A DNA stretch of 64,000 bases from Methanosarcinales archaeon Met12 (lineage in GTDB: Archaea > Halobacteriota > UBA148 > JAJOKI01). Position numbers and translations under genes: made by a program. The stretch spans positions 620,001-684,000 of the forward strand of contig CP017966.2 in assembly GCA_002813105.2 (NCBI GenBank), read 5' to 3'. Numbering within the stretch: the stretch's first letter is position 1; every line of letters begins with the position of its first letter. The notes under the pieces are model-generated. The model was not told the DNA's origin. It saw nothing but the letters and a program-made list of their open reading frames with translations, and ran no database searches. Positions 5,451-21,693 of this stretch are shown here, piece after piece.

Positions 5451-6461
5451 TCAACTGCCATCCTTCAACATCTTCAAACTGATGATACTGCCTGCGATGA
5501 TATTGGAATAATACGTCACAACCCTCCATATAACTGCCAATATGCCAAGTAGGGGAATATGTACAAAAGTCGCATATAGAGATACAAGTCCTAACTCTGC
5601 CAGTCCACTGCCTCCAGGCGTAATTGGAATCATCATTATGAACGTCAAAATTATCTGTGCTATGATGGAGTACAACCATACAGGATCTGCACCAAGCCCC
5701 ATAAGGATGAAGGATGGAATGGCAAATCCCAGAAGCCAGAATGCGATCGTACAGATGGTTGCGAGGACCAATGCGACCTTGCCCTCTCGAAGCAATCTCC
5801 ATAAACTTCTATTGAAGTTGTCAATCTCTGTGTTTATTCTTGTGACGATGTTATCGATGTTAATTGCATACTTGCGAGTAAATTTAGGAATGATCCATCT
5901 GAAAAGAGCAGATAACCACCTCTTAAGATTATCATGACGGAAGAGAGCATATATCATCATGCCCAGCAAGCAAAATAACAATATGCCTGCAAGTGCAAAC
6001 AACATACTCACATATATCTGATCTCTTACGATATCTTGGAATAAAAACATCGCAATCGGCGCAGTTATCCCCAAAAATAATGCGTCTAACGCCCTTTCTC
6101 CAAAAACAACCGCAGTTGCATCTCCTGCCGTCATTCCGTTCTTGTTCAACAGATGTATTCTAACTGGTTCACCTCCCGCCATAGACGGCGTTACTGCAGC
6201 AACCAATAGATTTGCTACAACTATCTTCGTGGACTTGATTATATGAATTCTACTACCAAGCGATTCTGCCAGTATCTTTATGCGCAAGCCCCACACGAAC
6301 CATGAGAAGATATTTAGACCTATTGCTATCAGAAGGTATATCGGTTGAATCTTACTCAAATAGACAAACGTATTCTCATCTACAGTGAGAATTAAGATTA
6401 CCAACATTGAGATGATGCTTACTGTGAGGCTTACCGCCAGCCACTTCTTCTTTTTATCCAA
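5451..6461 (-). CDS. UPF0104 / flippase-like integral membrane protein (AglD C-terminal type)
   Basis: 336 residues with about eight hydrophobic helices. Two conserved stretches, AAVTPSMAGGEPVRIHLL and PITPGGSGLAELGLVSL, are the hallmarks of the lysylphosphatidylglycerol-synthase transmembrane / UPF0104 family. In archaea this module occurs alone or fused to a GT2 domain, as in haloarchaeal AglD. Here the GT2 is the separate gene just upstream (gap 23 nt), so the two probably work together on a polyprenyl-linked sugar at the membrane. Last gene of the rqcH-pelA-GT4-GT2 run; convergent with the DJ-1 gene. Confidence 0.85.
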   Translation of the reverse strand: MDKKKKWLAVSLTVSIISMLVILILTVDENTFVYLSKIQPIYLLIAIGLNIFSWFVWGLRIKILAESLGSRIHIIKSTKIVVANLLVAAVTPSMAGGEPVRIHLLNKNGMTAGDATAVVFGERALDALFLGITAPIAMFLFQDIVRDQIYVSMLFALAGILLFCLLGMMIYALFRHDNLKRWLSALFRWIIPKFTRKYAINIDNIVTRINTEIDNFNRSLWRLLREGKVALVLATICTIAFWLLGFAIPSFILMGLGADPVWLYSIIAQIILTFIMMIPITPGGSGLAELGLVSLYATFVHIPLLGILAVIWRVVTYYSNIIAGSIISLKMLKDGS

Positions 6462-6484
6462 TCTTGGATAGCCCTCCCATCCAT

Positions 6485-7570
6485 TTATATATCAGACCTG
6501 CCCATCTCCTTCCATTCTATTTGCATATTGAATAATCGTCTGAGCAACACGTTCAAGCTACATACCTGCAGAATCCAAGCGTGTAGTATCAGGCCGAATA
6601 CCCTAATCGTAAAATCTTTTATGTCGTTACACGACTTCCACAATCTTATGCCGTACAGCAGTGTGAGTGGACTGAACAAGAAGATGACAAATGGAAGTGC
6701 CGTCGCCGAAAGCCACGTAATCTTGCGACTCATCGGAATTTTTGCGCGCACAAATGCTGAGAGGTATCGATTTAGACCTTCATACGCGCCGTTAATCCAT
6801 CTTGTCCTCTGGTTATAATAATCTTTGAGAGTACCTGGGGCCTGCTCACCCACACATGTCCTCTCAGCGAGTACAGCGATGCCACCTCCCAGATAGACCT
6901 GCTGGGTGATGTCCACATCCTCGCAAGCAGTAGATTCATCGAGTCCGCGATTGTCGAAGACCTGCGCATCCAATACGCCGACCAAGCCATTGAATTGCTT
7001 AAACCCGTCATAACGCTCCAGTAATTGATATATATCTGTTAGAATGGCATATTCGGTTGCCACAATTCTTGCGGTCAGGCTTGCATCCGGATTTGTGATA
7101 TACCGTGGGGCGCTAGCGATCACAGCACCATTTTCCTCTAATTTCCTGACACATTCGACCAGAAAGTTGGAATCCGGTCGGCTGTCTACATCAAAAAAAG
7201 CAAGATAGTCCGTCTTGCCTATCTTATCCAGTGCATCATTGATCGCACCTGCGCGTCGCCCCCGTCCATGGGTTCTGACTATTGTGCATAAATGTGATTT
7301 GCTCTGTAGATATGCGACTCGCGGGTCATCGGGACGATGAACATCAATGACATATGTCGTATGAACTTTAGCTATATCCCCGTGCTCTAATCTGGACAGA
7401 GATTCTACGGACCTCTCTATCACCGAAAGCGGCTCCTGTGGCGATACGGGAACGATGATATTTAACTTCACCTGATTAGCCCCCTCTCTAATTGTGATAC
7501 TTTTCATCTCCTGATTTAAATATTGGGCAATCTGCATATGTGCTTTACGGTGCGTCGATTTCCCCCTCAT
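6485..7570 (-). CDS. Membrane-anchored family 2 glycosyltransferase
   Basis: A GT-A domain near residues 33-270 carries NIIVPVSPQEP, the acidic metal motif in FFDVDSRPD and a processive-type QxxRW motif (NQRTRW). Two or three hydrophobic helices follow at the C-terminus. This is the architecture of cellulose-synthase-like or polyprenyl-phosphate glycosyltransferases acting on the cytoplasmic membrane face. The start is uncertain: ATG 7570 overlaps the end of the upstream GT4 gene by 26 nt, while ATG 7537 or ATG 7507 (next to CAGGAG) would shorten a poorly conserved N-terminus. Confidence 0.85.
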   Translation of the reverse strand: MRGKSTHRKAHMQIAQYLNQEMKSITIREGANQVKLNIIVPVSPQEPLSVIERSVESLSRLEHGDIAKVHTTYVIDVHRPDDPRVAYLQSKSHLCTIVRTHGRGRRAGAINDALDKIGKTDYLAFFDVDSRPDSNFLVECVRKLEENGAVIASAPRYITNPDASLTARIVATEYAILTDIYQLLERYDGFKQFNGLVGVLDAQVFDNRGLDESTACEDVDITQQVYLGGGIAVLAERTCVGEQAPGTLKDYYNQRTRWINGAYEGLNRYLSAFVRAKIPMSRKITWLSATALPFVIFLFSPLTLLYGIRLWKSCNDIKDFTIRVFGLILHAWILQVCSLNVLLRRLFNMQIEWKEMGRSDI

Positions 7571-8657
7571 ATAAGTCTATAATCTGGTTTGTGACTATAT
7601 CCCATGTATACTTCTCCTCTACCAACCGTCTTCCGCGTTTACCCATTTCACGTGCCCTCTTTTGGTCCGAGAGTATTTCAACAATCGCATTGGCCAGGCT
7701 GGTAGAGTTAGCAGGTTCCGCCAGCAATCCCGCTCCATCAATGACGTCCATCCCGCCGGGCATCCGCGTGGCAATCACTGGCGTCGCACATGCCATTGCC
7801 TCAAGCAGCACGATTCCAAATGACTCCGACCTCGATATGGCCGGAAGGACCAATACTCCTGCGCGTTGATATATGCTCTCTAGCGCTTCAGACGGTATGA
7901 AGCCCACGAATGAAACATAATCATCGACGCCACATTCCTTTGTCAATTTAATTAAGCTCTTTTTTTCTTCGCCCTCTCCAGCGATCACGAATCTGGCATC
8001 AGGAATTTCTTCGAGCACTTTTGGAACCGCATGCACCAGATAGTCCAAACCCTTGGATGCAGCAATGCGTCCGACAAACAGGACCATGGGCCCACGTTTC
8101 GCCAGCCCCTCATTGAAATTTTCAATCCTGATTGCATTTGGGATTACTCGATAGTCCATGTGTTTTAGGATGGCGGAAGTCTTGGCGTAGATATCCGTCG
8201 TCGTAATGATCTCGTCACAATCCCTGAGCACTTTGGCGGCGTAAAATCGATCGTGAGCCCACTCCAGACTGGAGCCGATGAATCTTGGGATGGGAATCTT
8301 CCCGAAGGATCGCGGTATTTGAACATCGCAGTGATAGGTCACCACATGGGGATGAACTCCGATGAGCGCATGCGAAAAAAACGGCGGAGGACAGTGTGAA
8401 TGAAAAATGTCCGCATCATACGACGATATTTTCTTCTTCAAAAAGGGTATGAATGGCACATACGGCACCTTCAAAGCATCAAACCTATATACTTCAATTC
8501 CGTTGAGGCATTCGCGTTCAGCCGACTTTGGCACATTGGAAGTAAGCACCACGACCTCGTGTCCTCTTTCCACCAAGGTGCGCGATAGTTCCAGAACATG
8601 TGTTTCGACGCCGCCAACATGTGGCATGAAATACGGTGTTGCTTGTAATATCTTCAT
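7545..8657 (-). CDS. GT4 family glycosyltransferase
   Basis: The N-terminal Rossmann half starts MKILQATPYFMPHVGGVETH, the classic GT4 opening with a GGVE loop. The C-terminal half has GRIAASKGLDYLVHA, then the E-x7-E motif in SESFGIVLLEAMACATPVIAT. It transfers a sugar from a nucleotide donor with retention, probably onto a lipid-linked or surface glycan. I start at ATG 8657, which follows GGGAG by about 9 nt. An upstream in-frame extension to 8753 overlaps pelA and lacks family similarity. It lies 10 nt after the pelA stop, so it is probably co-transcribed. Confidence 0.9.
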   Translation of the reverse strand: MKILQATPYFMPHVGGVETHVLELSRTLVERGHEVVVLTSNVPKSAERECLNGIEVYRFDALKVPYVPFIPFLKKKISSYDADIFHSHCPPPFFSHALIGVHPHVVTYHCDVQIPRSFGKIPIPRFIGSSLEWAHDRFYAAKVLRDCDEIITTTDIYAKTSAILKHMDYRVIPNAIRIENFNEGLAKRGPMVLFVGRIAASKGLDYLVHAVPKVLEEIPDARFVIAGEGEEKKSLIKLTKECGVDDYVSFVGFIPSEALESIYQRAGVLVLPAISRSESFGIVLLEAMACATPVIATRMPGGMDVIDGAGLLAEPANSTSLANAIVEILSDQKRAREMGKRGRRLVEEKYTWDIVTNQIIDLYEGEIDAP

Positions 8658-8667
8658 ACGCGACTCC

Positions 8668-9708
8668 CTATGTGGTCTTAAATCGCAACAATGCTGCGAT
8701 GCCCCCAAGTGAGTGCAATCTTCGTCCGGGCTCAAACTCGGTGCTGAACACAACTATTCTTCCTTGCGCCCGTTCCACTCCCTTCAGAAACTCGTCGATA
8801 TCTCCACGCTCACGCTCCTCTCTGAGGACTTCGTCCGCGATTAATAATTCGTCTATTGCTCCATAATCCATTGCCCTCTTAACATCTTCCATCCCATATG
8901 CTACTTTTCCATCCTTGGCGATTTCCTTGAGCAGACGCTCCATCAACTTTGCCTCATTGGATATTCGTGTCCCCTCTGCTATGCGGTCGACCGCCCCCCT
9001 CCGAAGCACTTCCTGAAATCCAGATATGCCGATTGAAGAAACATCCTCCAACACGGCTTTTTTGGCAAGCTCCGGATAGCTCTGTTTTAGAAACGTTAGA
9101 AAGTTCTCCTTGATGAATCCAGGTCCAGCGATGATTATGGCCTGGACTTCTCTGGAGGTCCAGTCCAATTGATGGGCAACTTCATCAAACAATTCGCCAG
9201 CTGCATCACTCTCCTTGCCAGAGGAGGATTTTATGGTTGCCACTTCGTCTACGCCATACTGTCTGACTGTTCCGATACACGCCTCTCCTTCTTCAATGGT
9301 AACGATTACCACCCTTGGACGGGCGGATGCCTTTACTGCATCGTTAATTCGCTCGAGTTGATCGTTTTTCCATTGTTTGATAACTGAAAGTTTAACATTC
9401 GGCTCTATATTGAGCGTATGATGTGAACCAATGTCAATGCCCTCTTCGATGGTGCCTTTGACACGCAGTCGATTGGAAAATTTATGAAATCTGACCTCCT
9501 CGATATTGATGCCCAGGCGCATCGGCTTCTTCTCTATTTTCTCAGGACGTATTTTGTCGGTGGCGCCCTCTATCCGCCGATGTGTTAACGCAAATATGGT
9601 GTCTCCAGGCTCTATGATATATTTTAGGTGCCACAGGTCATCCAGCGATTCTGGAACGAGCGTGATCTCGCCTCGATGTTTTTTCAATTTGTGCTTAACG
9701 ACTCGCAT
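8668..9708 (-). CDS. pelA: Pelota (aDom34), ribosome rescue / mRNA surveillance factor
   Basis: 346 residues, the normal archaeal Pelota length. The N-terminal Sm-like domain has LVPESLDDLWHLKYIIEPGDTIFALTHRR. The central and C-terminal eRF1-like domains follow (IIAGPGFIKENF, then ELLIADEVLRE and the terminal FEPGRRLHSLGGIAALLRF). It lacks the GGQ motif, as expected for Pelota versus aRF1 (encoded at 39828-41054). Pelota binds the empty A site of stalled ribosomes with aEF1A-GTP, and ABCE1 then splits the ribosome. It starts 3 nt after the rqcH stop, and ABCE1 lies close by on the other strand, giving a rescue gene cluster. Confidence 0.96.
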   Translation of the reverse strand: MRVVKHKLKKHRGEITLVPESLDDLWHLKYIIEPGDTIFALTHRRIEGATDKIRPEKIEKKPMRLGINIEEVRFHKFSNRLRVKGTIEEGIDIGSHHTLNIEPNVKLSVIKQWKNDQLERINDAVKASARPRVVIVTIEEGEACIGTVRQYGVDEVATIKSSSGKESDAAGELFDEVAHQLDWTSREVQAIIIAGPGFIKENFLTFLKQSYPELAKKAVLEDVSSIGISGFQEVLRRGAVDRIAEGTRISNEAKLMERLLKEIAKDGKVAYGMEDVKRAMDYGAIDELLIADEVLREERERGDIDEFLKGVERAQGRIVVFSTEFEPGRRLHSLGGIAALLRFKTT

Positions 9709-9711
9709 ATG

Positions 9712-11667
9712 CTACCTCCCATTTTTGAGGTTAGATGTTCCCGGCGGCAGAAACGGCGCAATCTTGTCAGGGGAGGCGATCGACTTGACCAGATATTTAT
9801 CTTCGGGTTCTGCTTTTTCCAAGAAAATTCCAGACAGTTCCTTTGCGATATGGTTTTGGGATTTATCTCCAGGCTCAAGCTCGATGACATATTTTGCACG
9901 CTTCTTGATTGCGTCTGAAGGTCCTCCGATCACATCGGTTTCCTCATCGATTTCGATGCCAATCGCTACACCAACCGCTGCCTTGATATAGTTTCTTTTA
10001 CCACGAATCACGAAACTCCCCTTTCCGATATACTCGCCTGTCTCCGGCGTCTTTGAAACCTGTTCGGGGTGGACCCAATAACAAGCCCCCTCGTAGTGCC
10101 CGGCTTTCCAGACACTGGAATATGAAACTGCAAACTGTGCCGCCTCCGATAGAGTCGCCTCTGGCACATCCTTTCCCTCTGTTTTGATCACCGTCACTGG
10201 AGCGCCATGTGCTTCTGCGTGAAAAAATATGTCGTCTTTTTTCATGTATTTCTTGACGATATCCTCGTTGGTATCGGCATCTCGCCCACCCACCACGAGA
10301 AATCCATCAGAAGACGTAAACCATCTGAACCGATCATACCAGTGACTTTTTTGCCTGATTTTTCGCTGGGGTGCCAGATGATATTCCGGTTCATAGTGCC
10401 CAAGCATTACCTGTTCGACCTCTTTTTTAGTCCGTTCTAATGCCCTTAGTGCCCCTTCTCGCTTTTTCCTGAGCTCCTTGGCGCGCAGATAATACTTTTT
10501 GGCATTTTGCGGAATGGTAAGCTTGACATTCAATGCGATGGAGGCTCCATCAAGTTTTATGGTAATATCTCCAATCTTTTCATCGATTTCGATTATTTCA
10601 TCGGTTCTGGTTTTAATTTCGCTCCAAGAATGGCCATCTTTTCTGGCACTACGAACACGCTCAAAAACTTCATCTATATGTTGATAATGGGCATAGATGA
10701 GCTCTGCCTTCTCGATACATTCCTTTTCCAGCTGCTCAAAACTCTTGATGGCGTCTTCTTGCCGCTCTAACATTCGCTTCACTACGCTTAGCTTCTCGTC
10801 TTTAATTTTCCTTCCCACCCCCTCCACTTCTCGAAGTGCCTGCTTGCTGAAGAACTCATCAAGTGCTTCGTTAAACGTGGTGAAGTACTTCTTTTCATGC
10901 TTTTCATATTGCCGCAGCTCAAACGAAAACACGTCGATTTGCGCATCGTCTGCCAGGACTATGTGCGGCTTCAACGTTCCTGATATGATCGGCTCAAATA
11001 GTCCGTGTAGCGCACTGTGGATTGATGCAGACTGCCTCTTCGTCAAATCCCCCGTCAGCGTATTTTTATCGACCCCTGCTCGAATGCATATCTCCTCTGC
11101 GTACAATCCTCCAATATTCAGTTTAGAGGCAAGCGTTCTGACCACATCTCTGTTGGACATATCTAACAACGTGCACAACTCAGCATTCGTGATATCCATC
11201 GGATTCATCAGGGATGGCGGGAATTCATATTGTTCACCCCGCCTGACCTCTCTGTCTTTAAAACTCATGGATTTAAGGGGCATTATGATTCTTCGATTTT
11301 CATCCAGAAGTATGACATTGCCCTTTGAGAACAATTCTACCACGAGTGTTGCAATCGTGTCACCGCGCAAGATGTGTATTTCGATGATTCTGTCGAAGTC
11401 ATATTGTTTTATCGCTGTAATACGTCCACCCATCAGATGCTTTCTCAAAAGCATCGGAAAGCTCGGTGCGATTTTGGGGCTTGGGCGCGGATATTTTGTA
11501 ACATGTATTCTCTTGCCAGCTTCGATGAGAAGATCCTGGCGTCCGCTGCCAGGAAGCTGAAGCTTCAACCTGATTTCATTTGGAGTGTGCTGGTATGCCT
11601 TGTCCAGTTTCGCATCAATCAGCATCTGTAATTCGGATACAACGGCAGATATGTCCACACTACTCAT
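9712..11667 (-). CDS. rqcH: RqcH / Rqc2-NEMF-like NFACT protein
   Basis: A full-length NFACT protein: the N-terminal NFACT-N domain starts SSVDISAVVSELQMLIDAKLDKAYQ and keeps the D-R pair in YDFDRIIEI. A helix-hairpin-helix and long coiled coil follow (residues ~280-440, with KELRKKREGALRALERTKK). The NFACT-R domain comes near the C-terminus (YDRFRWFTSSDGFLVVGGRD). The family binds peptidyl-tRNA-carrying 60S/50S subunits and, in bacteria, adds alanine tails. ATG 11667 is chosen over ATG 11685 because a TATA-like ATTAATA about 30 bp upstream would make 11667 a leaderless start. Followed directly by pelA. Confidence 0.93.
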   Translation of the reverse strand: MSSVDISAVVSELQMLIDAKLDKAYQHTPNEIRLKLQLPGSGRQDLLIEAGKRIHVTKYPRPSPKIAPSFPMLLRKHLMGGRITAIKQYDFDRIIEIHILRGDTIATLVVELFSKGNVILLDENRRIIMPLKSMSFKDREVRRGEQYEFPPSLMNPMDITNAELCTLLDMSNRDVVRTLASKLNIGGLYAEEICIRAGVDKNTLTGDLTKRQSASIHSALHGLFEPIISGTLKPHIVLADDAQIDVFSFELRQYEKHEKKYFTTFNEALDEFFSKQALREVEGVGRKIKDEKLSVVKRMLERQEDAIKSFEQLEKECIEKAELIYAHYQHIDEVFERVRSARKDGHSWSEIKTRTDEIIEIDEKIGDITIKLDGASIALNVKLTIPQNAKKYYLRAKELRKKREGALRALERTKKEVEQVMLGHYEPEYHLAPQRKIRQKSHWYDRFRWFTSSDGFLVVGGRDADTNEDIVKKYMKKDDIFFHAEAHGAPVTVIKTEGKDVPEATLSEAAQFAVSYSSVWKAGHYEGACYWVHPEQVSKTPETGEYIGKGSFVIRGKRNYIKAAVGVAIGIEIDEETDVIGGPSDAIKKRAKYVIELEPGDKSQNHIAKELSGIFLEKAEPEDKYLVKSIASPDKIAPFLPPGTSNLKNGR

Positions 11668-11744
11668 CTGATTTTTTATGTACATCGTGTATTAATAGCA
11701 TAAAGGATAAGATAAGTTTTAGCTGAAAATAACGGAGGTTAAGC

Positions 11745-12053
11745 ATGGATCAAACGGTGAAAGTTCCAACCGAAGAGGAAAAAAAGAAAGGATATATAGA
11801 TGGCATCAAAAAAACGATCATCCCTGGGATTTTTGGCATAATCGGGGGCATTATGTCATTTCATCTCGCCGGTGAAACACAGGCCAGGGCAGGATTTGGA
11901 TTTGCGATATTGGTCATCATGGTACTCTTGCAAAAGTATGTTTTCCCGCTGGTCAACATAAAAGTAGAAGAGTTTGAAGCCAAGGATTGGATTTATACCG
12001 TATTTATGACGACGACGTTCTGGTTTGTGAGTTGGACTCTTTTACTGAACTAA
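11745..12053 (+). CDS. Small membrane protein, possibly EMC6-like
   Basis: 102 residues: a charged N-terminus (about 22 residues, many Lys/Glu), then three hydrophobic helices, with a conserved-looking DWIYTVFMTTTFWFVSWTLLLN C-terminus. I recall similar ~100-residue proteins in methanogens annotated as EMC6-like; EMC6 is part of a membrane-insertion complex in eukaryotes. The assignment is by memory of this C-terminal pattern and is not certain. A strong Shine-Dalgarno (GGAGGT) precedes ATG 11745. It lies between rqcH (divergent) and the ABCE1 gene (downstream, 16 nt), which suggests a role at the ribosome-membrane interface. Confidence 0.6.
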   Translation: MDQTVKVPTEEEKKKGYIDGIKKTIIPGIFGIIGGIMSFHLAGETQARAGFGFAILVIMVLLQKYVFPLVNIKVEEFEAKDWIYTVFMTTTFWFVSWTLLLN

Positions 12054-12069
12054 TCTCGAAGTGAACGAT

Positions 12070-13824
12070 ATGAGAATTTCAGTTCTGAACAGGGATCGAT
12101 GTCAGCCTAAGAGATGCGCCCATGAGTGCCATCGATTTTGCCCAAGGGTGCGGACTGGAGACGAAACCATCGTCATCGGCGAGGACCATAAACCGATAAT
12201 ATCGGAAGAACTGTGCGTCGGGTGCGGCATATGCACCAAAAAATGTCCATTTGATGCGATAATGATCATCGGACTGCCAGAGGAGCTTCGTGAACAGGAA
12301 ACGCATAGATACGGCGTAAATGGCTTTGCACTCTATGGGTTGCCCATTCCGCAGGAGGGAAAGGTCACCGGAATACTTGGCCCAAACGGCACAGGAAAAA
12401 GTACTGCAATAAAGATATTGTCAGGCAGCCTCAAACCGAATATTGGAAAAGACGCCCCCCATTGGGACGAAATCATCCAGCACTATCGTGGCTCAGAACT
12501 GCAAGGATATATGCGAGGGATATCGCAAAAAGAGATAAGAATTGCTCAAAAGCCACAGCACATCGACGCAATACTAAAGGCATTTAGTGGCAGCGCTCGT
12601 GAATTGCTCCAGCCCCTCGACGAACGCGGGGCGTTAAAGGATTTGACGTCCAAACTTGATATCGATCATATACTGGATAGGGGGATTGAAGACCTTAGCG
12701 GTGGAGAACTCCAGCGCGTTGCCATCGCAGCATGTATGGCTAAAGATGCCAATTTCTACTTTTTCGATGAGATAACTTCCCATCTGGACATCTGCCAGCG
12801 CATCGAAGTCGCAAAGCTCATCCAGGACCTATCCAAGAACAAAACCGTGATGATCGTAGAGCACGACCTTGCCATTCTCGACCTATTGGCAGATATCGTG
12901 CATATTGTATATGGGACGCCAGGAGGGTATGGCGTAATAACTTCCCCTAAAGGCGTTAGAGTCGGCATTAACCAGTATTTGCAGGGCTTTTTACCAGAGG
13001 AGAACATTAGAATGCGCCAAGAAGCAATCAAATTTGAGGTTCATGCACCCAGACTTCAGAAGGACATTCCAGCACTCGCCAAATTTGATGCATTCGTTAA
13101 AAAATATCCCGAATTTACGTTGAACGTAAAGGGTGGTGAAATACGAAGGGGGGAGGTTATAGGCATTGTAGGGCCAAACGGCATCGGGAAAAGCACGTTC
13201 ATAAAGGTATTGGCTGGCATCATCGAACCAGATGAAGGTGCGGTAGGTCTCGACCTGCAGATATCTTACAAGCCGCAGTATATCACGAGATGCGACGAAT
13301 CGGTCAGGGACTTGCTGCGAACAATAACGAAGCAATTCGGCACAAGCCATTACAATACGGAGGTGATCGGACCATTGCAATTGGAATATTTACTGGACCA
13401 AAATCTGACAGACCTCAGCGGCGGAGAACTCCAGCGCGTTGCCATCGCAGCATGTTTGAGCAGGAAGGCGGATTTATATATTTTGGATGAACCCTCTGCA
13501 CATTTAGATGTCGAGCAGCGGACTTCCGCCATTAAGACGATACGCCGATTTGCAGAAAACAACAAAGCAAGCGCGATGGTAGTTGATCATGACATCTATA
13601 TGATAGACCTGCTCAGCGAGCGTTTGATGGTCTTTGATGGGAAGCCAGGGGTGTGTGGTGAAGTATTTGGTCCGTTCGATATGCGCGAAGGCATGAATAA
13701 ATTTCTTGAAAAAATGGATATCACCTTCAGGCGCGACGAGAATACCAAGAGGCCGAGGGTAAACAAACCAGAATCCAAATTGGACAGGGAACAGAAGGCG
13801 AAAGGGGAGTATTATTATCAGTGA
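12070..13824 (+). CDS. abce1: ABCE1 / Rli1 ribosome-recycling ATPase
   Basis: All ABCE1 parts are present: an N-terminal pair of 4Fe-4S clusters (cysteines in RCQPKRCAHECHRFCP and CVGCGICTKKCPF), two ABC domains with Walker A GPNGTGKST and GPNGIGKST, and two signature motifs LSGGELQRV. It splits ribosomes into subunits after termination or Pelota rescue. I prefer ATG 12070 over GTG 12061 because AAGTGA sits just before it. The two signature regions (about 12697-12735 and 13417-13455) are almost identical in DNA, hinting at gene conversion between the halves. Confidence 0.97.
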   Translation: MRISVLNRDRCQPKRCAHECHRFCPRVRTGDETIVIGEDHKPIISEELCVGCGICTKKCPFDAIMIIGLPEELREQETHRYGVNGFALYGLPIPQEGKVTGILGPNGTGKSTAIKILSGSLKPNIGKDAPHWDEIIQHYRGSELQGYMRGISQKEIRIAQKPQHIDAILKAFSGSARELLQPLDERGALKDLTSKLDIDHILDRGIEDLSGGELQRVAIAACMAKDANFYFFDEITSHLDICQRIEVAKLIQDLSKNKTVMIVEHDLAILDLLADIVHIVYGTPGGYGVITSPKGVRVGINQYLQGFLPEENIRMRQEAIKFEVHAPRLQKDIPALAKFDAFVKKYPEFTLNVKGGEIRRGEVIGIVGPNGIGKSTFIKVLAGIIEPDEGAVGLDLQISYKPQYITRCDESVRDLLRTITKQFGTSHYNTEVIGPLQLEYLLDQNLTDLSGGELQRVAIAACLSRKADLYILDEPSAHLDVEQRTSAIKTIRRFAENNKASAMVVDHDIYMIDLLSERLMVFDGKPGVCGEVFGPFDMREGMNKFLEKMDITFRRDENTKRPRVNKPESKLDREQKAKGEYYYQ

Positions 13825-15930: not shown

Positions 15931-16584
15931 ATGGATGGAGTCATTCTGGACCAATACGAGAAGAGGGTCATCGGTCAGATAGGGAAAGAGGGCATTCCAG
16001 AACATATAATTCTCGTGATCGCCGAAGAGGACCTGCAGACCGACGATGCGCTCAAGAAGCTCAAGGCATTTGTCTTCTGGTGTTCCGAAATTGGAATTCG
16101 CAGGGTTACAGTACACATCAGTGTGATTGCCATAGGAGAGATAAAGAAAAGAATATATTCAACACTCACGAAGCAATTGATCGAGGCAATGTCCCACATC
16201 CCAGCCAAGGTCGCAATATACACAGAATCCGAAAGGATAGACGTAACTTCTGGAAAATATGACCTAATGCTTGACATTTCAATTGGCTATGGGGGAAAGC
16301 AGGAACTGGTCAGGGCAATCAAGCAGATCATGCATAAAGTCGAGGTGGGAGAATTTACTCTAGACGATATTGATGAGGCATTGGTCGAGTCACACCTTGT
16401 ATTTAAAGCAGAACCAGATTTGGTCATCAAGACAGGCGGAGTACGATTGACGGATTTTCTGATATGGCAGGCAGTGTATTCAGAGTTCTTTTTTACAGAC
16501 GTGAACTGGTCAGGGTTCAGAAAGGTGGATTTTTTAAGGGCGATCAGGGATTATCAGAAAAGACAGAGACGATTTGGGAAATAG
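15931..16584 (+). CDS. Cis-prenyltransferase paralogue without catalytic Asp (NgBR/Nus1-like subunit)
   Basis: 217 residues in the UPP-synthase fold. The C-terminal part is clearly homologous (YGGKQELVRAIKQI; PDLVIKTGG; FLIWQAVYSEFFF; the end YQKRQRRFGK). The N-terminal DGNxRWA motif with the catalytic Asp is absent; the matching place reads HIILVIAEEDLQ. It keeps the C-terminal RxG-type motif (RFG) that the other copy at 18830-19768 lacks. This is the division of labour seen in heteromeric enzymes such as human DHDDS-NgBR; a heteromeric cis-prenyltransferase has also been reported in Methanosarcina mazei. Probably the non-catalytic partner in dolichol-type carrier synthesis. Confidence 0.82.
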   Translation: MDGVILDQYEKRVIGQIGKEGIPEHIILVIAEEDLQTDDALKKLKAFVFWCSEIGIRRVTVHISVIAIGEIKKRIYSTLTKQLIEAMSHIPAKVAIYTESERIDVTSGKYDLMLDISIGYGGKQELVRAIKQIMHKVEVGEFTLDDIDEALVESHLVFKAEPDLVIKTGGVRLTDFLIWQAVYSEFFFTDVNWSGFRKVDFLRAIRDYQKRQRRFGK

Positions 16585-16593
16585 TGGTGTAGC

Positions 16594-17163
16594 TTATCGT
16601 ATCTTAGCCCACTTACATAGGAATTCAGACTTATTCTCATTTATGTATCTTTCATACTTCGTCACAATCTTGGGTTTTTCGATGGCTTTTCTGTATGCTT
16701 CTTCGCTTTCAAATAAATGGATTTTATTTTGAACATTCTTAAACCTCTTTATGCGTATATCATCTATTAAAAGAGCCTCCTCTCTTGTAAAAATATAAAA
16801 TTGTGCACCAACAAAATCATCGTTCAATGCTACACCCACAAGAATATCGTATTCTATCTCTTGTTTATCCCATTCTTTAACTGTCCAACCCCAATATTTC
16901 ACGTCTTTAGGATATAATCCCTCATTCTTTAGCGTGGAGGTTCTAATCTTTACGTTTATTTTTTTGCCATTGTAATCTATATAGATATTAGCTTTCCTTT
17001 TATCAGGTGTTAATTTTTTAAATCCCAATCCGTTTAATTTGTCCAATACACACTTTTTTCCAAGCTTACTGACCAACCCATGAGGTAAAGGGCGGCCGAT
17101 GCTCTTATATTTTTTAAGCCTAACTATTATCTCCTCAATTACTCCGTTTTTATCGATACTCAT
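16594..17163 (-). CDS. Predicted PD-(D/E)XK-like nuclease or group I hypothetical
   Basis: 189 residues from ATG 17163 (ATG 17193 adds ten). The middle reads ANIYIDYNGKKINVKIRTST, then hydrophobic strands and DILVGVALND, DFVGAQFYIFTREEA. This order resembles restriction-endonuclease-like domains in which an Asp strand, a xVK strand and a later D-x-hydrophobic strand alternate, although the usual Glu before VK is missing. The function is therefore a guess. Its base composition is AT-rich like the two R-M genes upstream. Its first codons (ATGAGTATCGATAAAAAC) are copied at the 3' end of uppS (18816-18834), suggesting it originally followed uppS with overlapping stop and start. Confidence 0.6.
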   Translation of the reverse strand: MSIDKNGVIEEIIVRLKKYKSIGRPLPHGLVSKLGKKCVLDKLNGLGFKKLTPDKRKANIYIDYNGKKINVKIRTSTLKNEGLYPKDVKYWGWTVKEWDKQEIEYDILVGVALNDDFVGAQFYIFTREEALLIDDIRIKRFKNVQNKIHLFESEEAYRKAIEKPKIVTKYERYINENKSEFLCKWAKIR

Positions 17164-17170
17164 AACTTTC
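17131..17170. repeat. Direct repeat, left copy (with 18801-18840), flanking the R-M cassette
   Basis: About 40 bp here match 18801-18840 in the same orientation with a few mismatches; the core GTTTTTATCGATACTCA (17147-17163) is exact at 18817-18833 except for offsets at the edges. One copy covers the start of the 16594-17163 gene, the other the stop of uppS. The arrangement looks like a duplicated target around the 1.6-kb R-M cassette. Confidence 0.7.
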
Positions 17171-17240
17171 CCAGCATAAAAGAAGTTTTGCAAAACAAAA
17201 ATTTGAGTGAGTACCGTAAGGCACGAATCTTTTATGCTGT

Positions 17241-17254
17241 GTTATACGCCATCG
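17241..17254. repeat. 14-bp inverted repeat, left end of R-M cassette
   Basis: GTTATACGCCATCG here is a perfect reverse complement of 18750-18763. The pair tightly brackets the REase and methyltransferase genes (17256-18727). No matching short duplication lies directly outside the pair, so a simple transposon end is not proven; they could also be paired binding sites or recombination sites. Confidence 0.75.
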
Positions 17255-17255
17255 T

Positions 17256-17906
17256 TTAAAACTCAATAAAATATTCCAGCTCATCATCTATTGCCTCCAA
17301 ATCTAATAACACCTTTGCTCTTCTTGGACTTCCATCGGCATTTCTGAAATCTTCCTGAAATGAACCATATTTAACCAATGTATCATCCGTTATTCTGATG
17401 AAAGAAATTTGCTGTAACTCAAAGGATACTTTTCTCAATCTTGACCATGCCCCTCTTTTTATCCTCTCTATCACATATTTTGATTTTCCACCTTTCAACG
17501 CTTCATGCCACTTTTGAAATGTTCTATCTTCATCGTTATATAGAACCTTACCGATGGCAAGAATTAAGCCAACTGCTCCATAATCTTTAATTCCATTCGC
17601 TGTCGCTTCACTATCATTAACAATTATCTGATGACTGCTTGTATTCATAGCATGTGCTTTGAAATCCCAAGGAACATTTTTAAAACCATCAAACCTAACA
17701 TTTCCATATTTTGGCCCTGGTATTTCAACAAAACCTGATAAATATTTTTCACATAGAAATTGAAAGTAAAAACCAATCCATTCCATTTGTTTCCAATGTG
17801 GATAGTTTGCGTCTTTCATCTCCAAGATTGATTTTCTGCCATCCCACATCTTAGGAATCTTTCTCAATTCTTTTCCAACATGTTTGGCAGTTTTTAAGAA
17901 AGTCAT
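17256..17906 (-). CDS. Putative type II restriction endonuclease
   Basis: 216 residues; no close family recognised by eye. It lies 2 nt downstream of a DNA methyltransferase gene on the same strand, which is the main reason for the call. The segment NVRFDGFKNVPWDFKAHAMN offers a PD-(D/E)XK-like pair (D followed about ten residues later by DFK). The protein is soluble and rich in aromatic and basic residues. The gene is markedly more AT-rich than uppS, consistent with transfer. The inverted repeat at 17241-17254 begins just past its stop codon. Confidence 0.65.
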   Translation of the reverse strand: MTFLKTAKHVGKELRKIPKMWDGRKSILEMKDANYPHWKQMEWIGFYFQFLCEKYLSGFVEIPGPKYGNVRFDGFKNVPWDFKAHAMNTSSHQIIVNDSEATANGIKDYGAVGLILAIGKVLYNDEDRTFQKWHEALKGGKSKYVIERIKRGAWSRLRKVSFELQQISFIRITDDTLVKYGSFQEDFRNADGSPRRAKVLLDLEAIDDELEYFIEF

Positions 17907-17908
17907 TG

Positions 17909-18727
17909 TTATCCTTCTATTTCAAATAAATTCAATGTTTTTTGGAACTTTTCCTCTACCTCTTTAATCCTATATTTATTTTCATTCAACCTTTTTTGAG
18001 CAAACTCATAATATTCTTTTACAATTTCAAATCCAATATACTGTCTTTTCATCATTTTACTAACAACTGCCACCTGCCCGGAACCTAAGAAAGGATCTAA
18101 AACAACATCTCCTTCTTCACTTGAATACATCAATATCTTTTTAATCAATTCAGCAGGTAATTTTGTTGGGGTTTTCTGGTCTCCTGTCCAATACTCTCTT
18201 TTGATTATCCAAACATCCTCTTTATCTTTATAATGCAAGCTGCCACCATCTTTATCATCATCTTCTTTTCCATATCTTGAATAAGGAAAAAATTTCCGTT
18301 TTTCATCATTTTTGCAAACATAAAGGCAGTGATAATGGGAAGTTACAAATTTTCTTTTCGTCACAACACCAAATTGATATTTCCAGATAATATGATTAAC
18401 TGTAATAAAACCGATTTCGTCAATTGCAACTAATATGTCTTTTAAATTATTCCATCCTGAAAAAACATACATACTTCCTGATTCCTTAAGAGCCCTATAA
18501 ACCCCTTTCATCCATTTGAGTGTGAAATCATAGTATTCTTCTTTTGGTATTTCATTGTATCCTTCTAAAACCCGAGATTGTGTTCTGCGATAATTATTTC
18601 TTTTTGCTTTAAAATCTATGGCAAAAGGCGGGTCTGTAATAACAAGGTCTATCGTATTATCGGTGATATGCTTCATTCCATCAATACAATCCATATTGTA
18701 TATTTTGTTAAATTCAAATTTTTCCAT
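17909..18727 (-). CDS. DNA methyltransferase, N4-cytosine / N6-adenine (beta class)
   Basis: 272 residues. The catalytic DPPF motif is at residues 32-35 (LVITDPPFAIDF), and the SAM-binding FxGxG motif lies near the C-terminus (DPFLGSGQVAVVSKMM, about residue 210), an order that defines the beta class. It would modify the recognition site of the neighbouring endonuclease. The start ATG 18727 follows a GGGGTAAG Shine-Dalgarno. AT-rich composition and flanking inverted repeats suggest a recently acquired module. Confidence 0.92.
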   Translation of the reverse strand: MEKFEFNKIYNMDCIDGMKHITDNTIDLVITDPPFAIDFKAKRNNYRRTQSRVLEGYNEIPKEEYYDFTLKWMKGVYRALKESGSMYVFSGWNNLKDILVAIDEIGFITVNHIIWKYQFGVVTKRKFVTSHYHCLYVCKNDEKRKFFPYSRYGKEDDDKDGGSLHYKDKEDVWIIKREYWTGDQKTPTKLPAELIKKILMYSSEEGDVVLDPFLGSGQVAVVSKMMKRQYIGFEIVKEYYEFAQKRLNENKYRIKEVEEKFQKTLNLFEIEG

Positions 18728-18749
18728 CTTACCCCCTTCTTATCATGAG

Positions 18750-18763
18750 CGATGGCGTATAAC
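18750..18763. repeat. 14-bp inverted repeat, right end of R-M cassette
   Basis: CGATGGCGTATAAC is a perfect reverse complement of 17241-17254. It sits 22 nt upstream of the methyltransferase start, so besides being a cassette end it could be an operator for that gene. Confidence 0.75.
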
Positions 18764-18800
18764 TTCCTATATGACCTTACTTTTCTTGCCTATAAACTTT

Positions 18801-18840
18801 CATCTCAATTCACTCGTTTTTATCGATACTCACAACTTCA
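18801..18840. repeat. Direct repeat, right copy (with 17131-17170)
   Basis: Imperfect copy of 17131-17170 covering the uppS stop codon. On the minus strand the uppS stop TGA overlaps a GTG in the context GTGAGTATCGATAAAAAC, matching the ATG start of the 16594-17163 gene. This supports an ancestral overlapping gene pair split by the R-M cassette. Confidence 0.7.
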
Positions 18841-19768
18841 GCCCGCTTCTCACGTTAACGGGCAATTCATGCAATATGCTTAGCACCTCTTTTCTCGTAA
18901 TATTCAATATGCGCCCGCATAGGCTGATGACTTCCTCGACCTCGACGTTCGAGCATTCACTTAACAATTTAATCATCCGTATAACGGTATTGCGCCGTTT
19001 CTCAGATTCCCTCATCTGATATGTGCGCACGCCCCTCAAGAAGTCGATCTTGCGAAATTCAGGCCAATATGGTGCACAGAAGTATGCTGCGCACTCGTTA
19101 CCGCTTGCCTGCCACGGGAGGAAGTTGGATGCCCGCTCTTCTCCGCCGGTTCTGATGACCAGGTCGACGTTGACCGAATCACCCGAATACAAATGGGCAG
19201 ATATTATGCTCTCATCGATATCCTCTGTTCGCAGCTCTCCAGCAAGAACCTTTTGTGCTATTTTCCTTGTAGCATCGACGATTTCCTGCCGTCCACCATA
19301 TGCCAGTGCAACGTTGAGGCAAAAATTGTCATAGTCCTTCGTTTTTTGCTCTGCCTGTTTAATCGCCAGTCTTACGTCGATGGGGAGACGGTCTATGTCG
19401 CCTATGGCCCTGACTCGCATCCTATAACGGTGAATTCGCTCGTCAATGCACATCTCATCGAATCTTTCTTTAAATAACTTGTAAAGTTGCATGCGTTCTG
19501 TGTATGGTCTACGGAAATTTTCGGTCGAAAATGTGTATATGGTCAGTTGCTTAACTCCGATCTCCACACACCATTCTATGAGTTTCTCGGTCGTGTAAGC
19601 GCCATGGATATGTCCATGGGAAGGAGGTTCACCAATCCTTTTGGCATATCTTCGGTTTCCATCCTGTATGACTGCAACATGCGCTGGAATTAGCCCCTCC
19701 TTTATTTCTTCCGTTAGAAGGGACTCATATCCCGTGTACAATATATTCCGTATCTTACTCCCTGTCAT
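18830..19768 (-). CDS. uppS: Cis-prenyltransferase, catalytic subunit (UPP synthase family)
   Basis: 312 residues, longer than the ~250 typical, with an extra C-terminal tail of about 60. The catalytic motif AVIQDGNRRYAKR (residues ~32-44) is intact, as are YTFSTENFRRP, YGGRQEIVDA, LVIRTGGEERASNFLPWQ and the ECAAYF block. The C-terminal RxG motif of homodimeric enzymes is missing (YQMRESEKRRN in its place), whereas the paralogue at 15931-16584 ends with it. It should elongate polyprenyl diphosphate for dolichol-type glycan carriers, probably as a heteromer. The R-M cassette has inserted just downstream. Confidence 0.93.
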   Translation of the reverse strand: MTGSKIRNILYTGYESLLTEEIKEGLIPAHVAVIQDGNRRYAKRIGEPPSHGHIHGAYTTEKLIEWCVEIGVKQLTIYTFSTENFRRPYTERMQLYKLFKERFDEMCIDERIHRYRMRVRAIGDIDRLPIDVRLAIKQAEQKTKDYDNFCLNVALAYGGRQEIVDATRKIAQKVLAGELRTEDIDESIISAHLYSGDSVNVDLVIRTGGEERASNFLPWQASGNECAAYFCAPYWPEFRKIDFLRGVRTYQMRESEKRRNTVIRMIKLLSECSNVEVEEVISLCGRILNITRKEVLSILHELPVNVRSGLKL

Positions 19769-20166: not shown

Positions 20167-21693
20167 TTACGTTGACGCCTCTTTAAATCGTTTCCTGATG
20201 AAATTTGGGCTCAACGACGTCAGGAACCATCCCGCTCTCGGACCGGAGGGCGTGCCAAGCAGCGCTATATAGGCCGCCTCAAACACGTATTTCGGGTCCA
20301 CGCCGACATTCCCGGCAATTTGGTATATTTCAGCATGTAGCGCATCTGCAGTCCATTCGCGTCCTATTTCGTCCGCGAGAATATTCAATGCCCTCTTTTG
20401 CTGTGGAGACAGCTCTTTTGCTGCGTTGGGAAGTGTTTCCCTGACCTTGAATTTCACGACAGATGGGGCGAACTTGTTCAGCCAGTTCTCGGCATTTTTT
20501 GCACGCTGTTTGATCGCACCCACATCATCAATCTCATATCCACTGCGCTTAAGCGTTTCAACGATTCGGTCAAAGTTGCGAGCAATCTGCACGATCGTGA
20601 CCATATGCCTAAACGGGACCTTGGTGGAGACCTCGCGAGCAATCTGCATATGCCTAAACGGGACCTTGGTGGAGAGTTCGTACGACCGATCGGTTTCGTT
20701 TAACCTGTCATATTCATCTATCAAATTCAAGAGGGGCGCTCCGGGGTCAAAGTCAATGTGCCTTTCTGGTTTTGCCCGTATGATTAGATAACGCAGTACC
20801 TCTGGCGGGAGCACATCGAGCATCTCTTGAACTGAAATGACAACGCCTGCTGAACTTGACATCTTGCCATGTCCCTTGAGAAAGATGTGCTCAAACGGTA
20901 TTGGATATGGAGGGTCGTAGTCATATACCTCCTTTGCAATGCGTATTCCAGTGTCATAGGAACCGCCAGCCACTGCATGGTCTTTTCCAAATGGCTCGAC
21001 TGTGATACCGAGTATCTTCCACCGTGCAGGCCAGTCCACCCGCCACGTGAGTTTCCCGTCCCCCTTCGATATGTCAGCGGTGCCCTGGTGCCCACATTGG
21101 CATTCGTAATCTACTCCCTTCCCATGATATCCTGTGACGATAGTCATGGTAATCCTGCCGCATTGCTCACATAACGGATTGAATGGGCTCCAATTTTGTG
21201 GCATCGTTCTTCCAGTGACTTCGGCAAGTCTCTGCGCAATTTTATCCTCGTTTATTAGTGCCGTCAGGATGGCATCGGCATAATCACCACGCTTGTACAT
21301 CTGGTCCGCCCTGGTGACATCCGTCCCGATGCCCAACTTTTCCATTGCGTCCAAAAAAGGTTGTAGAAAGTGTTCAGCATAATTTGCACAACATCCATCT
21401 GGGTCCGGTATTTCGGATATGGGTTTCCCAACGTGTGATGCATAGTCTTCTGACAGGAAGGGATAAACCTTGCGAAGCGGGTCGTATGAATCCGCAATGT
21501 AGTGCAGGCGTACGTCTGCTCCATGGTCTTTTAGCGCCAGACGCACTGCATCTGCTGTTACCACCTCCCGCATATTTCCGATATGTATGGGCCCCGATGG
21601 GGTGATTCCCGTCGCTATCACATGTCTATTTCCGCGATTCTTCAATACATCCTTCGCAACGACATCGGCCCAGTGAACCGTATCTTCTGCCAT
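20167..21693 (-). CDS. lysS: Lysyl-tRNA synthetase, class I
   Basis: 508 residues. The class I signatures are HIGN (in GPIHIGNMREV, residue ~36) and KMSSS (GHGKMSSSAGVV, residue ~272). A zinc-binding set of cysteines follows NPLCEQCGR and ECQCGHQG. This is the archaeal-type LysRS that charges tRNA-Lys. A 14-residue segment is tandemly repeated near residues 340-372 (STKVPFRHM-QIAR and STKVPFRHMVTIVQIAR); the second copy looks ancestral. It is in frame, so the enzyme should still be made. The 1-nt gap to the upstream cutA gene suggests an operon. Confidence 0.96.
   Translation of the reverse strand: MAEDTVHWADVVAKDVLKNRGNRHVIATGITPSGPIHIGNMREVVTADAVRLALKDHGADVRLHYIADSYDPLRKVYPFLSEDYASHVGKPISEIPDPDGCCANYAEHFLQPFLDAMEKLGIGTDVTRADQMYKRGDYADAILTALINEDKIAQRLAEVTGRTMPQNWSPFNPLCEQCGRITMTIVTGYHGKGVDYECQCGHQGTADISKGDGKLTWRVDWPARWKILGITVEPFGKDHAVAGGSYDTGIRIAKEVYDYDPPYPIPFEHIFLKGHGKMSSSAGVVISVQEMLDVLPPEVLRYLIIRAKPERHIDFDPGAPLLNLIDEYDRLNETDRSYELSTKVPFRHMQIAREVSTKVPFRHMVTIVQIARNFDRIVETLKRSGYEIDDVGAIKQRAKNAENWLNKFAPSVVKFKVRETLPNAAKELSPQQKRALNILADEIGREWTADALHAEIYQIAGNVGVDPKYVFEAAYIALLGTPSGPRAGWFLTSLSPNFIRKRFKEAST
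20578..20675. repeat. Imperfect tandem duplication inside lysS
   Basis: The block 20635-20675 (41 bp) repeats 20578-20630 except that the latter carries 12 extra bases (four codons, VTIV). The duplicated DNA is otherwise identical, including 27 bp of uninterrupted match, so the event is recent. Confidence 0.9.

Follow-up and report, generated by a model that had tools for sequence, protein, structure and literature searches.

Two complementary genes of Methanosarcinales archaeon Met12 probably encode one heteromeric cis-prenyltransferase, a pairing found across Halobacteriota

A 64,000-nucleotide stretch of the genome of Methanosarcinales archaeon Met12 (assembly GCA_002813105.2, contig CP017966.2, positions 620,001 to 684,000 of the forward strand), referred to here as the window, carries two cis-prenyltransferase genes whose products lack opposite halves of the active site. 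P0001 is of a small, non-catalytic (NgBR-like) kind and P0002 of a catalytic (DHDDS-like) kind. The two very probably constitute one obligate heteromeric cis-prenyltransferase, which would make the polyprenyl diphosphate of a glycan carrier. This reading draws on the residues that each protein keeps and misses, the predicted folds, the restriction of the family to these two genes in the genome, their co-occurrence and separate clades in the phylum, and gene order, all of which were observed directly. A heteromer of the DHDDS-NgBR or Methanosarcina mazei kind had been proposed in a first-pass annotation made from the DNA letters alone, and that proposal agrees with the sequences, the modelled structures, the distribution of the genes and their order.

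The PF01255 profile covers P0002 over positions 1-216 of 219 (E 4e-70) and P0001 over positions 87-219 only (E 6e-33). P0001 contains no DGN, is without the catalytic P-loop and the H43 helix, and ends in RQRRFGK. P0002 contains VIQDGNRRYA and keeps all catalytic residues of the N-terminal half (N-half). Translation thus upheld the annotated description of the 15931-16584 protein as lacking DGN and ending in RRFGK. For the 18830-19768 protein, the retained DGNRRYA stood, and the reported lack of an RxG end stood at the aligned position, although the final six residues read RSGLKL; this RxG lies about 57 residues downstream of the proper place of the motif and is a chance, incidental one. Both proteins lie where they had been placed, but no strand had been given: the plus-strand reading of 18830-19768 is riddled with stops, and the coding strand is minus. 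The genome, a single contig of 1,067,436 bases that is 97% complete, contains exactly two PF01255 genes, those of P0001 and P0002, and no third gene of this type was found in it, also with a more specific profile.

The complementary pattern was followed in 60 genomes of the phylum Halobacteriota, the window's genome (G000) included, and in proteins of named organisms. Removal of near-duplicates with identical last 60 residues reduced the frames of the phylum sample from 56 to 45 for the small subunit and from 52 to 42 for the catalytic subunit. The DGN loop pattern occurs in 0/45 small subunits and DGNRR in 42/42 catalytic frames. An R-x-G-x C-terminus was found in 44 of the 45 small subunits, the remaining one ending in K-x-G-x, and in none of the 42 catalytic frames. 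All 71 small subunits of named organisms end in R-x-G-x as well, and the letters DGN appear somewhere in one of them; among 41 archaeal catalytic frames from named organisms, 39 have DGN and the two exceptions are pieces that are cut or frameshifted. The RxG end of the small subunits (44/45 and 71/71) is beyond chance, because just 36 of 3194 other frames of at least 100 amino acids end in R-x-G-x (107 of 3265 in total, minus the 71). In the outgroup, composed of bacterial proteins and one Woesearchaeal protein, DGN and RxG stand on one chain in 9/9, in agreement with the earlier statement that each protein alone misses one element of the homodimeric enzymes.

Alignments were built from P0001 with 49 (A3) or 29 (A5) of the 71 named small subunits, and from P0002 with 33 (A4) or 21 (A6) of 37 catalytic subunits. 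Active-site columns carry what we take to be the residue numbers of Escherichia coli UppS, with an offset consistent with the alignment made here. None of the 50 small subunits in A3 retains R30, H43 or R77, and Asp occupies the D26 column in seven. The R and G of RxG and the equivalent of E213 are kept in 50/50. The columns of the isopentenyl diphosphate (IPP) site are occupied by K (29) or R (21) at R194, R (30) or H (15) at R200, and S (25) or T (23) at S202. All 19 invariant columns of A3 fall in the C-terminal half (C-half), within P0001 residues 122-216, which comprises the dimer face and the tail. In A4, all 34 rows keep the equivalents of D26, N28, R30, H43, S71, E73, N74, R77, R194, R200, S202 and E213, the D, G, N, R and R of the P-loop are invariant (34/34), and the aligned RxG position is unconserved. 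Alignment with UppS and DHDDS/NgBR had been named in the first-pass annotation as a check, and it bears out a complementary loss of active-site columns in the two subunits.

Single-chain models were made with AlphaFold2 and compared by Foldseek and VIA-align. The mean predicted local distance difference test (pLDDT) score was 88.6 for P0001 and 88.7 for P0002. P0001 is modelled as a complete cis-prenyltransferase zeta fold, the best VIA-align neighbours of which are homodimeric enzymes (5hxt_B, Z 20.0, root-mean-square deviation (rmsd) 2.5, 197 residues). NgBR chains are absent among the best 50 P0001 matches listed by Foldseek and VIA-align, and may rank lower. P0001 has no N-terminal transmembrane anchor; about 24 residues, several of them charged, precede the fold, with a model helix at 3-16. 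Its final three residues fall below pLDDT 50, as would be expected of a tail that needs a partner. In the Foldseek ranking for P0002, DHDDS chains from the human heterotetramer take the first eight places, and VIA-align puts DHDDS level with Bacillus subtilis UppS (Z 26-28, 235-251 residues, rmsd 2.6-3.7). Where the chain of a homodimeric enzyme would stop with RxG, P0002 goes on into modelled helices at residues 240-272, 277-288 and 292-301. The structural alignment with DHDDS, whose C-terminal helix-turn-helix builds the heterotetramer, stops at residue 256-264.

Both kinds of subunit occur in 54 of the 60 genomes, neither in six, and only one kind in none, the small kind being assigned by matched profile range in all 54 and verified by sequence in 45. 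The six genomes without either are G001, which belongs to the window's genus, is 76% complete and also lacks DUF92, and all five of family f9. PF01255 matches beyond the pair were seen in 9/54. Among 40 Methanosarcinaceae genomes, six of them common to the 60-genome sample, both genes are intact in 37. A search with the small-subunit alignment recovered relatives in Candidatus Methanoperedens, Argoarchaeum, Syntrophoarchaeum and ANME-1, and further ones in Methanosarcinales, Methanomicrobiales, Methanothrix and haloarchaea. Sampled small subunits of the same phylum are 92-100% identical to those of Natrinema, Methanohalophilus and Methanothrix. In a tree of 17/50 small rows, 16/34 catalytic rows, nine bacterial or outgroup rows and three rows like MM_0014, a third M. 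mazei paralogue, the small subunits form one clade (100/99), the catalytic subunits another (100/99) and the MM_0014-like proteins a third (100/100). The two-gene pair is old within the phylum. That P0001 is a decayed paralogue with no role in prenyl transfer, as the loss of most of its catalytic residues might suggest, is extremely improbable in view of its retention across the phylum as one clade, its RxG columns (50/50), 19 invariant C-half columns and full zeta-fold model, and the fixed place of its gene beside DUF92 in 33/54 genomes.

Several findings weigh against an obligate heteromer. The homodimer of MM_0014 is functional although it has no RxG (PMC8131916), and loss of RxG alone is therefore no proof of dependence. 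Part of the IPP site (K167, R172, T174, E185) survives in P0001, which may have a substrate contact of its own, and the fold and sequence of P0001 are closer to bacterial and plant homodimeric enzymes than to NgBR. The two genes of the window lie on opposite strands and so do not form one operon. Among the 40 Methanosarcinaceae genomes, no small subunit was seen in G082 and only a contig-end fragment of it in G060, and in G063 the catalytic gene (G063:C103:1341-2005) is broken by several stops, with the small subunit intact. It is improbable that P0002 is an active homodimer closed by its own C-terminal extension in the TLGG mode of MM_0014, with P0001 as a chain-lengthening or stabilising regulator. 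The incidental RSG of P0002 and the measurable, though low, activity of homodimeric DHDDS (PMC7573591) would agree with such an arrangement, as would the active MM_0014 homodimer itself. However, the end of the extension is unconserved, with R-x-G-x terminating 0/42 catalytic frames, the MM_0014-like proteins form a separate clade, and the small gene, with its near-invariant RxG, is present in 54/54 genomes that have the catalytic gene. It is very unlikely that each protein forms a homodimer with a role of its own, such as IPP sensing by P0001 while P0002 acts with an unknown third protein. P0001 does keep E213 and the R/K-R-S/T set that binds IPP, and yeast Nus1 expressed alone forms homodimers (PMC7573591), but the genome has only two PF01255 genes, each protein lacks exactly the half that the other provides, and published heteromers have the same make-up (PMC8131916).

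In the heteromeric enzyme favoured here, the N-half residues D36, N38, R40, H53, E83, N84 and R87 of P0002 would bind the allylic primer and Mg2+, and R206, R212 and S214 would bind IPP. P0001 would pack on P0002 via the conserved C-half dimer face, and its tail, R214-F215-G216-K217, would thread across the interface into the P0002 active site. The chain of P0002 itself runs on into the helical extension and presumably could not close its own site. From these features we infer that the proteins form a complex and depend on each other. The product would be a long polyprenyl diphosphate, the precursor of the archaeal dolichol phosphate glycan carrier, and DUF92 may act at a later step of the same pathway.

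The coordinates of the two genes, their motifs and their neighbours are collected in Table 1.

Table 1. Features of the locus, in window positions.
Feature	Coordinates	Strand	Basis
P0003, integral membrane protein of the DUF92 / TIGR00297 family; gene head-to-head with that of P0001	14599..15894	-	PF01940, TIGR00297
P0001, putative non-catalytic (NgBR-like) cis-prenyltransferase subunit, 217 amino acids	15931..16584	+	PF01255 match, lost catalytic residues, zeta-fold model
RxG motif at the P0001 C-terminus (R214-F215-G216), with K217 and the stop after it	16570..16578	+	translation
199-amino-acid open reading frame (ORF) of the cassette, no family assigned	16594..17193	-	no family match
216-amino-acid cassette ORF, presumably the restriction endonuclease	17256..17906	-	no family match; context
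N6/N4 DNA methyltransferase of the cassette	17909..18727	-	PF01555 E 2.5e-43; PADLOC MTase_II
P0002 C-terminal extension (about residues 254-312), replaces the RxG tail; predicted helical	18833..19009	-	model helices
P0002, putative catalytic (DHDDS-like) cis-prenyltransferase subunit, 312 amino acids	18830..19768	-	PF01255, Foldseek
DGNRRYA P-loop of P0002 (D36-A42), holds the catalytic Asp	19643..19663	-	translation

The genes for the small and catalytic subunits lie within 4 kb of each other in 28/54 genomes from eleven families, and are always convergent. Both genes were found in nine other genomes of the taxonomic order to which the window belongs, and in all nine the two stop-free frames range from overlapping by 48 bases to standing 17 bases apart; in the window the gap is 2.2 kb. 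This gap holds the restriction-modification cassette by which the pair had been annotated as split. The methyltransferase of the cassette was recovered as described, and the nuclease is inferred only, the other two ORFs having no match in Pfam, NCBIfam or PADLOC. The guanine plus cytosine (GC) content of the cassette (16594-18727) is 32.9%, the window as a whole having 44.9%, and the 216-amino-acid ORF of the cassette was found in none of 20 other genomes searched. Because of this low GC, the absence from relatives and the near-abutting genes in the nine other genomes, the cassette most likely entered the space between two convergent genes at a later time, the split being secondary. Elsewhere the small and catalytic genes have been separated independently, in one locus (L088:6636-9360, fen_53) by cytochrome-c-biogenesis-like genes and a MobA-like nucleotidyltransferase, and in a Natrinema locus (L113:6546-8769) by transposase-like ORFs, these identities having been assigned by eye.

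The annotated position of one cis-prenyltransferase gene beside a DUF92 gene was borne out, P0003 scoring above the cut-offs of both Pfam PF01940 (E 5e-63; 213 bits against 27.5) and NCBIfam TIGR00297 (236 bits against 206). The DUF92 and small-subunit genes are neighbours within 3 kb in 33/54 genomes from ten families, always divergent. The 21/54 genomes in which they are not neighbours count against their coupling, and so do the five genomes of family f9, which bear DUF92 and are without cis-prenyltransferase genes. D317 and D393 of DUF92 are invariant in 61/61 rows, which would fit a metal site. The plant phytyl-phosphate kinase VTE6 is, we assume, a member of the same family. For P0003, a polyprenol(-phosphate) kinase role is predicted from family membership and from the report of Makarova et al. 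(2015; arCOG02245, PMC5898192), in which uppS is given as the single conserved context of DUF92 and a kinase step in isoprenoid metabolism is predicted. For archaeal dolichol phosphate, the late synthetic steps have been called unknown (PMC5088576). The N-terminal part of DUF92 did not emerge as a second, Sec59-like DUF92 domain when compared with the C-terminal part by hhalign (probability 0.3%, E 0.19), and hmmscan detected no CTP-transferase family in the N-terminal part of P0003 or in four whole relatives. These weaker means thus did not reproduce the HHpred link published for Mbar_A3310, and they neither confirm nor refute it. PF01148 is matched only once in the genome, by a 181-amino-acid frame away from DUF92.

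All five family f9 genomes (G016, G034, G043 and G050, corresponding to loci L077-L080, and G025) have DUF92 and neither a PF01255 nor an A2 match. The oligosaccharyltransferase STT3/AglB is encoded in the window's genome. At 5451-8753 (minus strand), an LPG_synthase_TM-type membrane protein, which we take to be COG0392-like, and GT2 and GT4 glycosyltransferases stand in a row, a small set of glycosylation genes with DUF92 at a distance of about 6 kb. COG0392 is a predicted flippase family (PMC5898192). A ribosome-rescue neighbourhood occupies 8668-13824, where genes for a Pelota-like eRF1-domain protein, an NFACT/Rqc2-like protein, EMC6_arch and an ABCE1/RLI-like ATPase lie side by side; it is partly kept at DUF92 in family f9, an ABCE1-like frame following DUF92 in L079 (judged by eye). 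On the far side of the P0002 gene, a Class I lysyl-tRNA synthetase (LysRS)-like protein is encoded at 20167-21693 (minus strand), the translation of which contains a doubled stretch, STKVPFRHM...STKVPFRHM, for which a tandem-repeat finder gave nothing at score 40.

It is possible, and is put forward tentatively from sequence comparison, that eukaryotic NgBR/Nus1 has one non-catalytic ancestor in common with the small subunit of Halobacteriota, in which case the catalytic subunit would be the counterpart of DHDDS and the human two-part design would have been inherited from archaea. Against 177,635 PDB sequences, the small-subunit N-half profile placed DHDDS (E 7.5e-4) and NgBR (E 0.01) at the top, every bacterial and plant cis-prenyltransferase ranking below them; the catalytic N-half profile placed DHDDS first by 23 bits, with NgBR unlisted at E 10. 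With N-half profiles made from the rows that have a recognisable cut point (34/50 small, 30/34 catalytic, 11/12 bacterial), the NgBR N-half scored 23.3 bits for the small, 7.9 for the catalytic and 4.6 for the bacterial profile. Compared over its full length, the small subunit lies nearer to UppS, since the score is then governed mainly by the C-half. The His-to-Trp spacing, which spans the lost catalytic helix, is 21-26 in 48/50 small subunits, 32 in the other two and 23 in NgBR, whereas DHDDS and all rows of the catalytic, bacterial and MM_0014-like kinds have 36-38; the same segment of 11-13 residues is deleted in NgBR and the archaeal small subunits. The same helix may also have been lost separately in each. 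A tree of 13 small, 11 catalytic and 12 bacterial rows with NgBR and DHDDS, comprising one eukaryotic NgBR and no Asgard sequences, joined NgBR to the small subunits at 72/96, which is not significant, on a very long NgBR branch (5.73).

The M. mazei heteromer (PMC8131916) and the DUF92-uppS context (2015, PMC5898192) have been published; the phylum-wide pairing, and the identity of the DUF92 partner as the non-catalytic subunit, are new. In the arCOG02245 passage of the 2015 paper (section 3.4), the neighbour is not called a non-catalytic subunit and a heteromer is not mentioned (PMC5898192). By titles and the openings of abstracts, PMC8131916 is the only one on an archaeal enzyme among the papers found on heteromeric cis-prenyltransferases and archaea. 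Titles and abstract openings, mostly from outside subscription journals and preprints, gave no claim of an archaeal origin of NgBR or of a phylum-wide heteromer. What had been one described heteromer thus becomes a phylum-wide rule, with two complementary halves in 54/54 sampled genomes that have cis-prenyltransferase genes, often near DUF92. Small archaeal proteins without a membrane anchor would be convenient models for DHDDS-NgBR, which is mutated in human disease, and DUF92 is a candidate for the late steps of archaeal dolichol-phosphate synthesis. The origin of NgBR becomes a testable question; if the archaeal origin were true, the two-part design of the dolichol enzyme would be archaeal and not a eukaryotic invention.

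A heteromeric cis-prenyltransferase of Methanosarcina mazei was reportedly described by Emi et al. in 2019. The annotated mention of such an enzyme is correct: MM_0618 and MM_1083 form a heteromer that produces a C45-50 glycan-carrier precursor (PMC8131916). A 4.2-Mb one-contig Methanosarcinaceae genome contains exactly three PF01255 genes, namely a TLGG-ending, a small and a catalytic one, and since the third M. mazei paralogue, MM_0014, ends in TLGG, MM_0618 and MM_1083 should be the catalytic and small kinds. The M. mazei pair thus resembles P0001 and P0002 in belonging to the same phylum and in having subunits of the same two kinds, by elimination and not by comparison of the M. mazei sequences themselves. 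Unlike in the window, neither the two subunit genes nor the small-subunit and DUF92 genes adjoin in Methanosarcinaceae (family f5 of the 60-genome sample). MM_0014 shares the PF01255 family but differs from both proteins in its TLGG end, and the three MM_0014-like loci, which end in TLGG or ITLGG, form their own clade. Homodimeric UppS (7JLI; E. coli 1JP3) has the PF01255 domain and fold of P0001 and P0002 and, unlike either, bears DGN and RxG on one chain.

A close parallel in design is human DHDDS-NgBR (NUS1). In the human structure, R290-L291-G292-K293 of NgBR crosses into the DHDDS active site, and the kcat of DHDDS-NgBR is about 400-fold above that of homodimeric DHDDS (PMC7573591). DHDDS, like P0002, is the catalytic chain, contains DGNRRYA and is extended by helices at the C-terminus, although the extension of P0002 aligns with DHDDS only to about residue 264. 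P0001 differs from NgBR in having no N-terminal membrane segment and in keeping more of the cis-prenyltransferase fold and of the IPP-site residues, and its overall sequence is nearer to UppS. NgBR and P0001 nevertheless share the absence of a catalytic loop and an R-x-G-K end, RLGK in the human protein and RFGK in the archaeal one.

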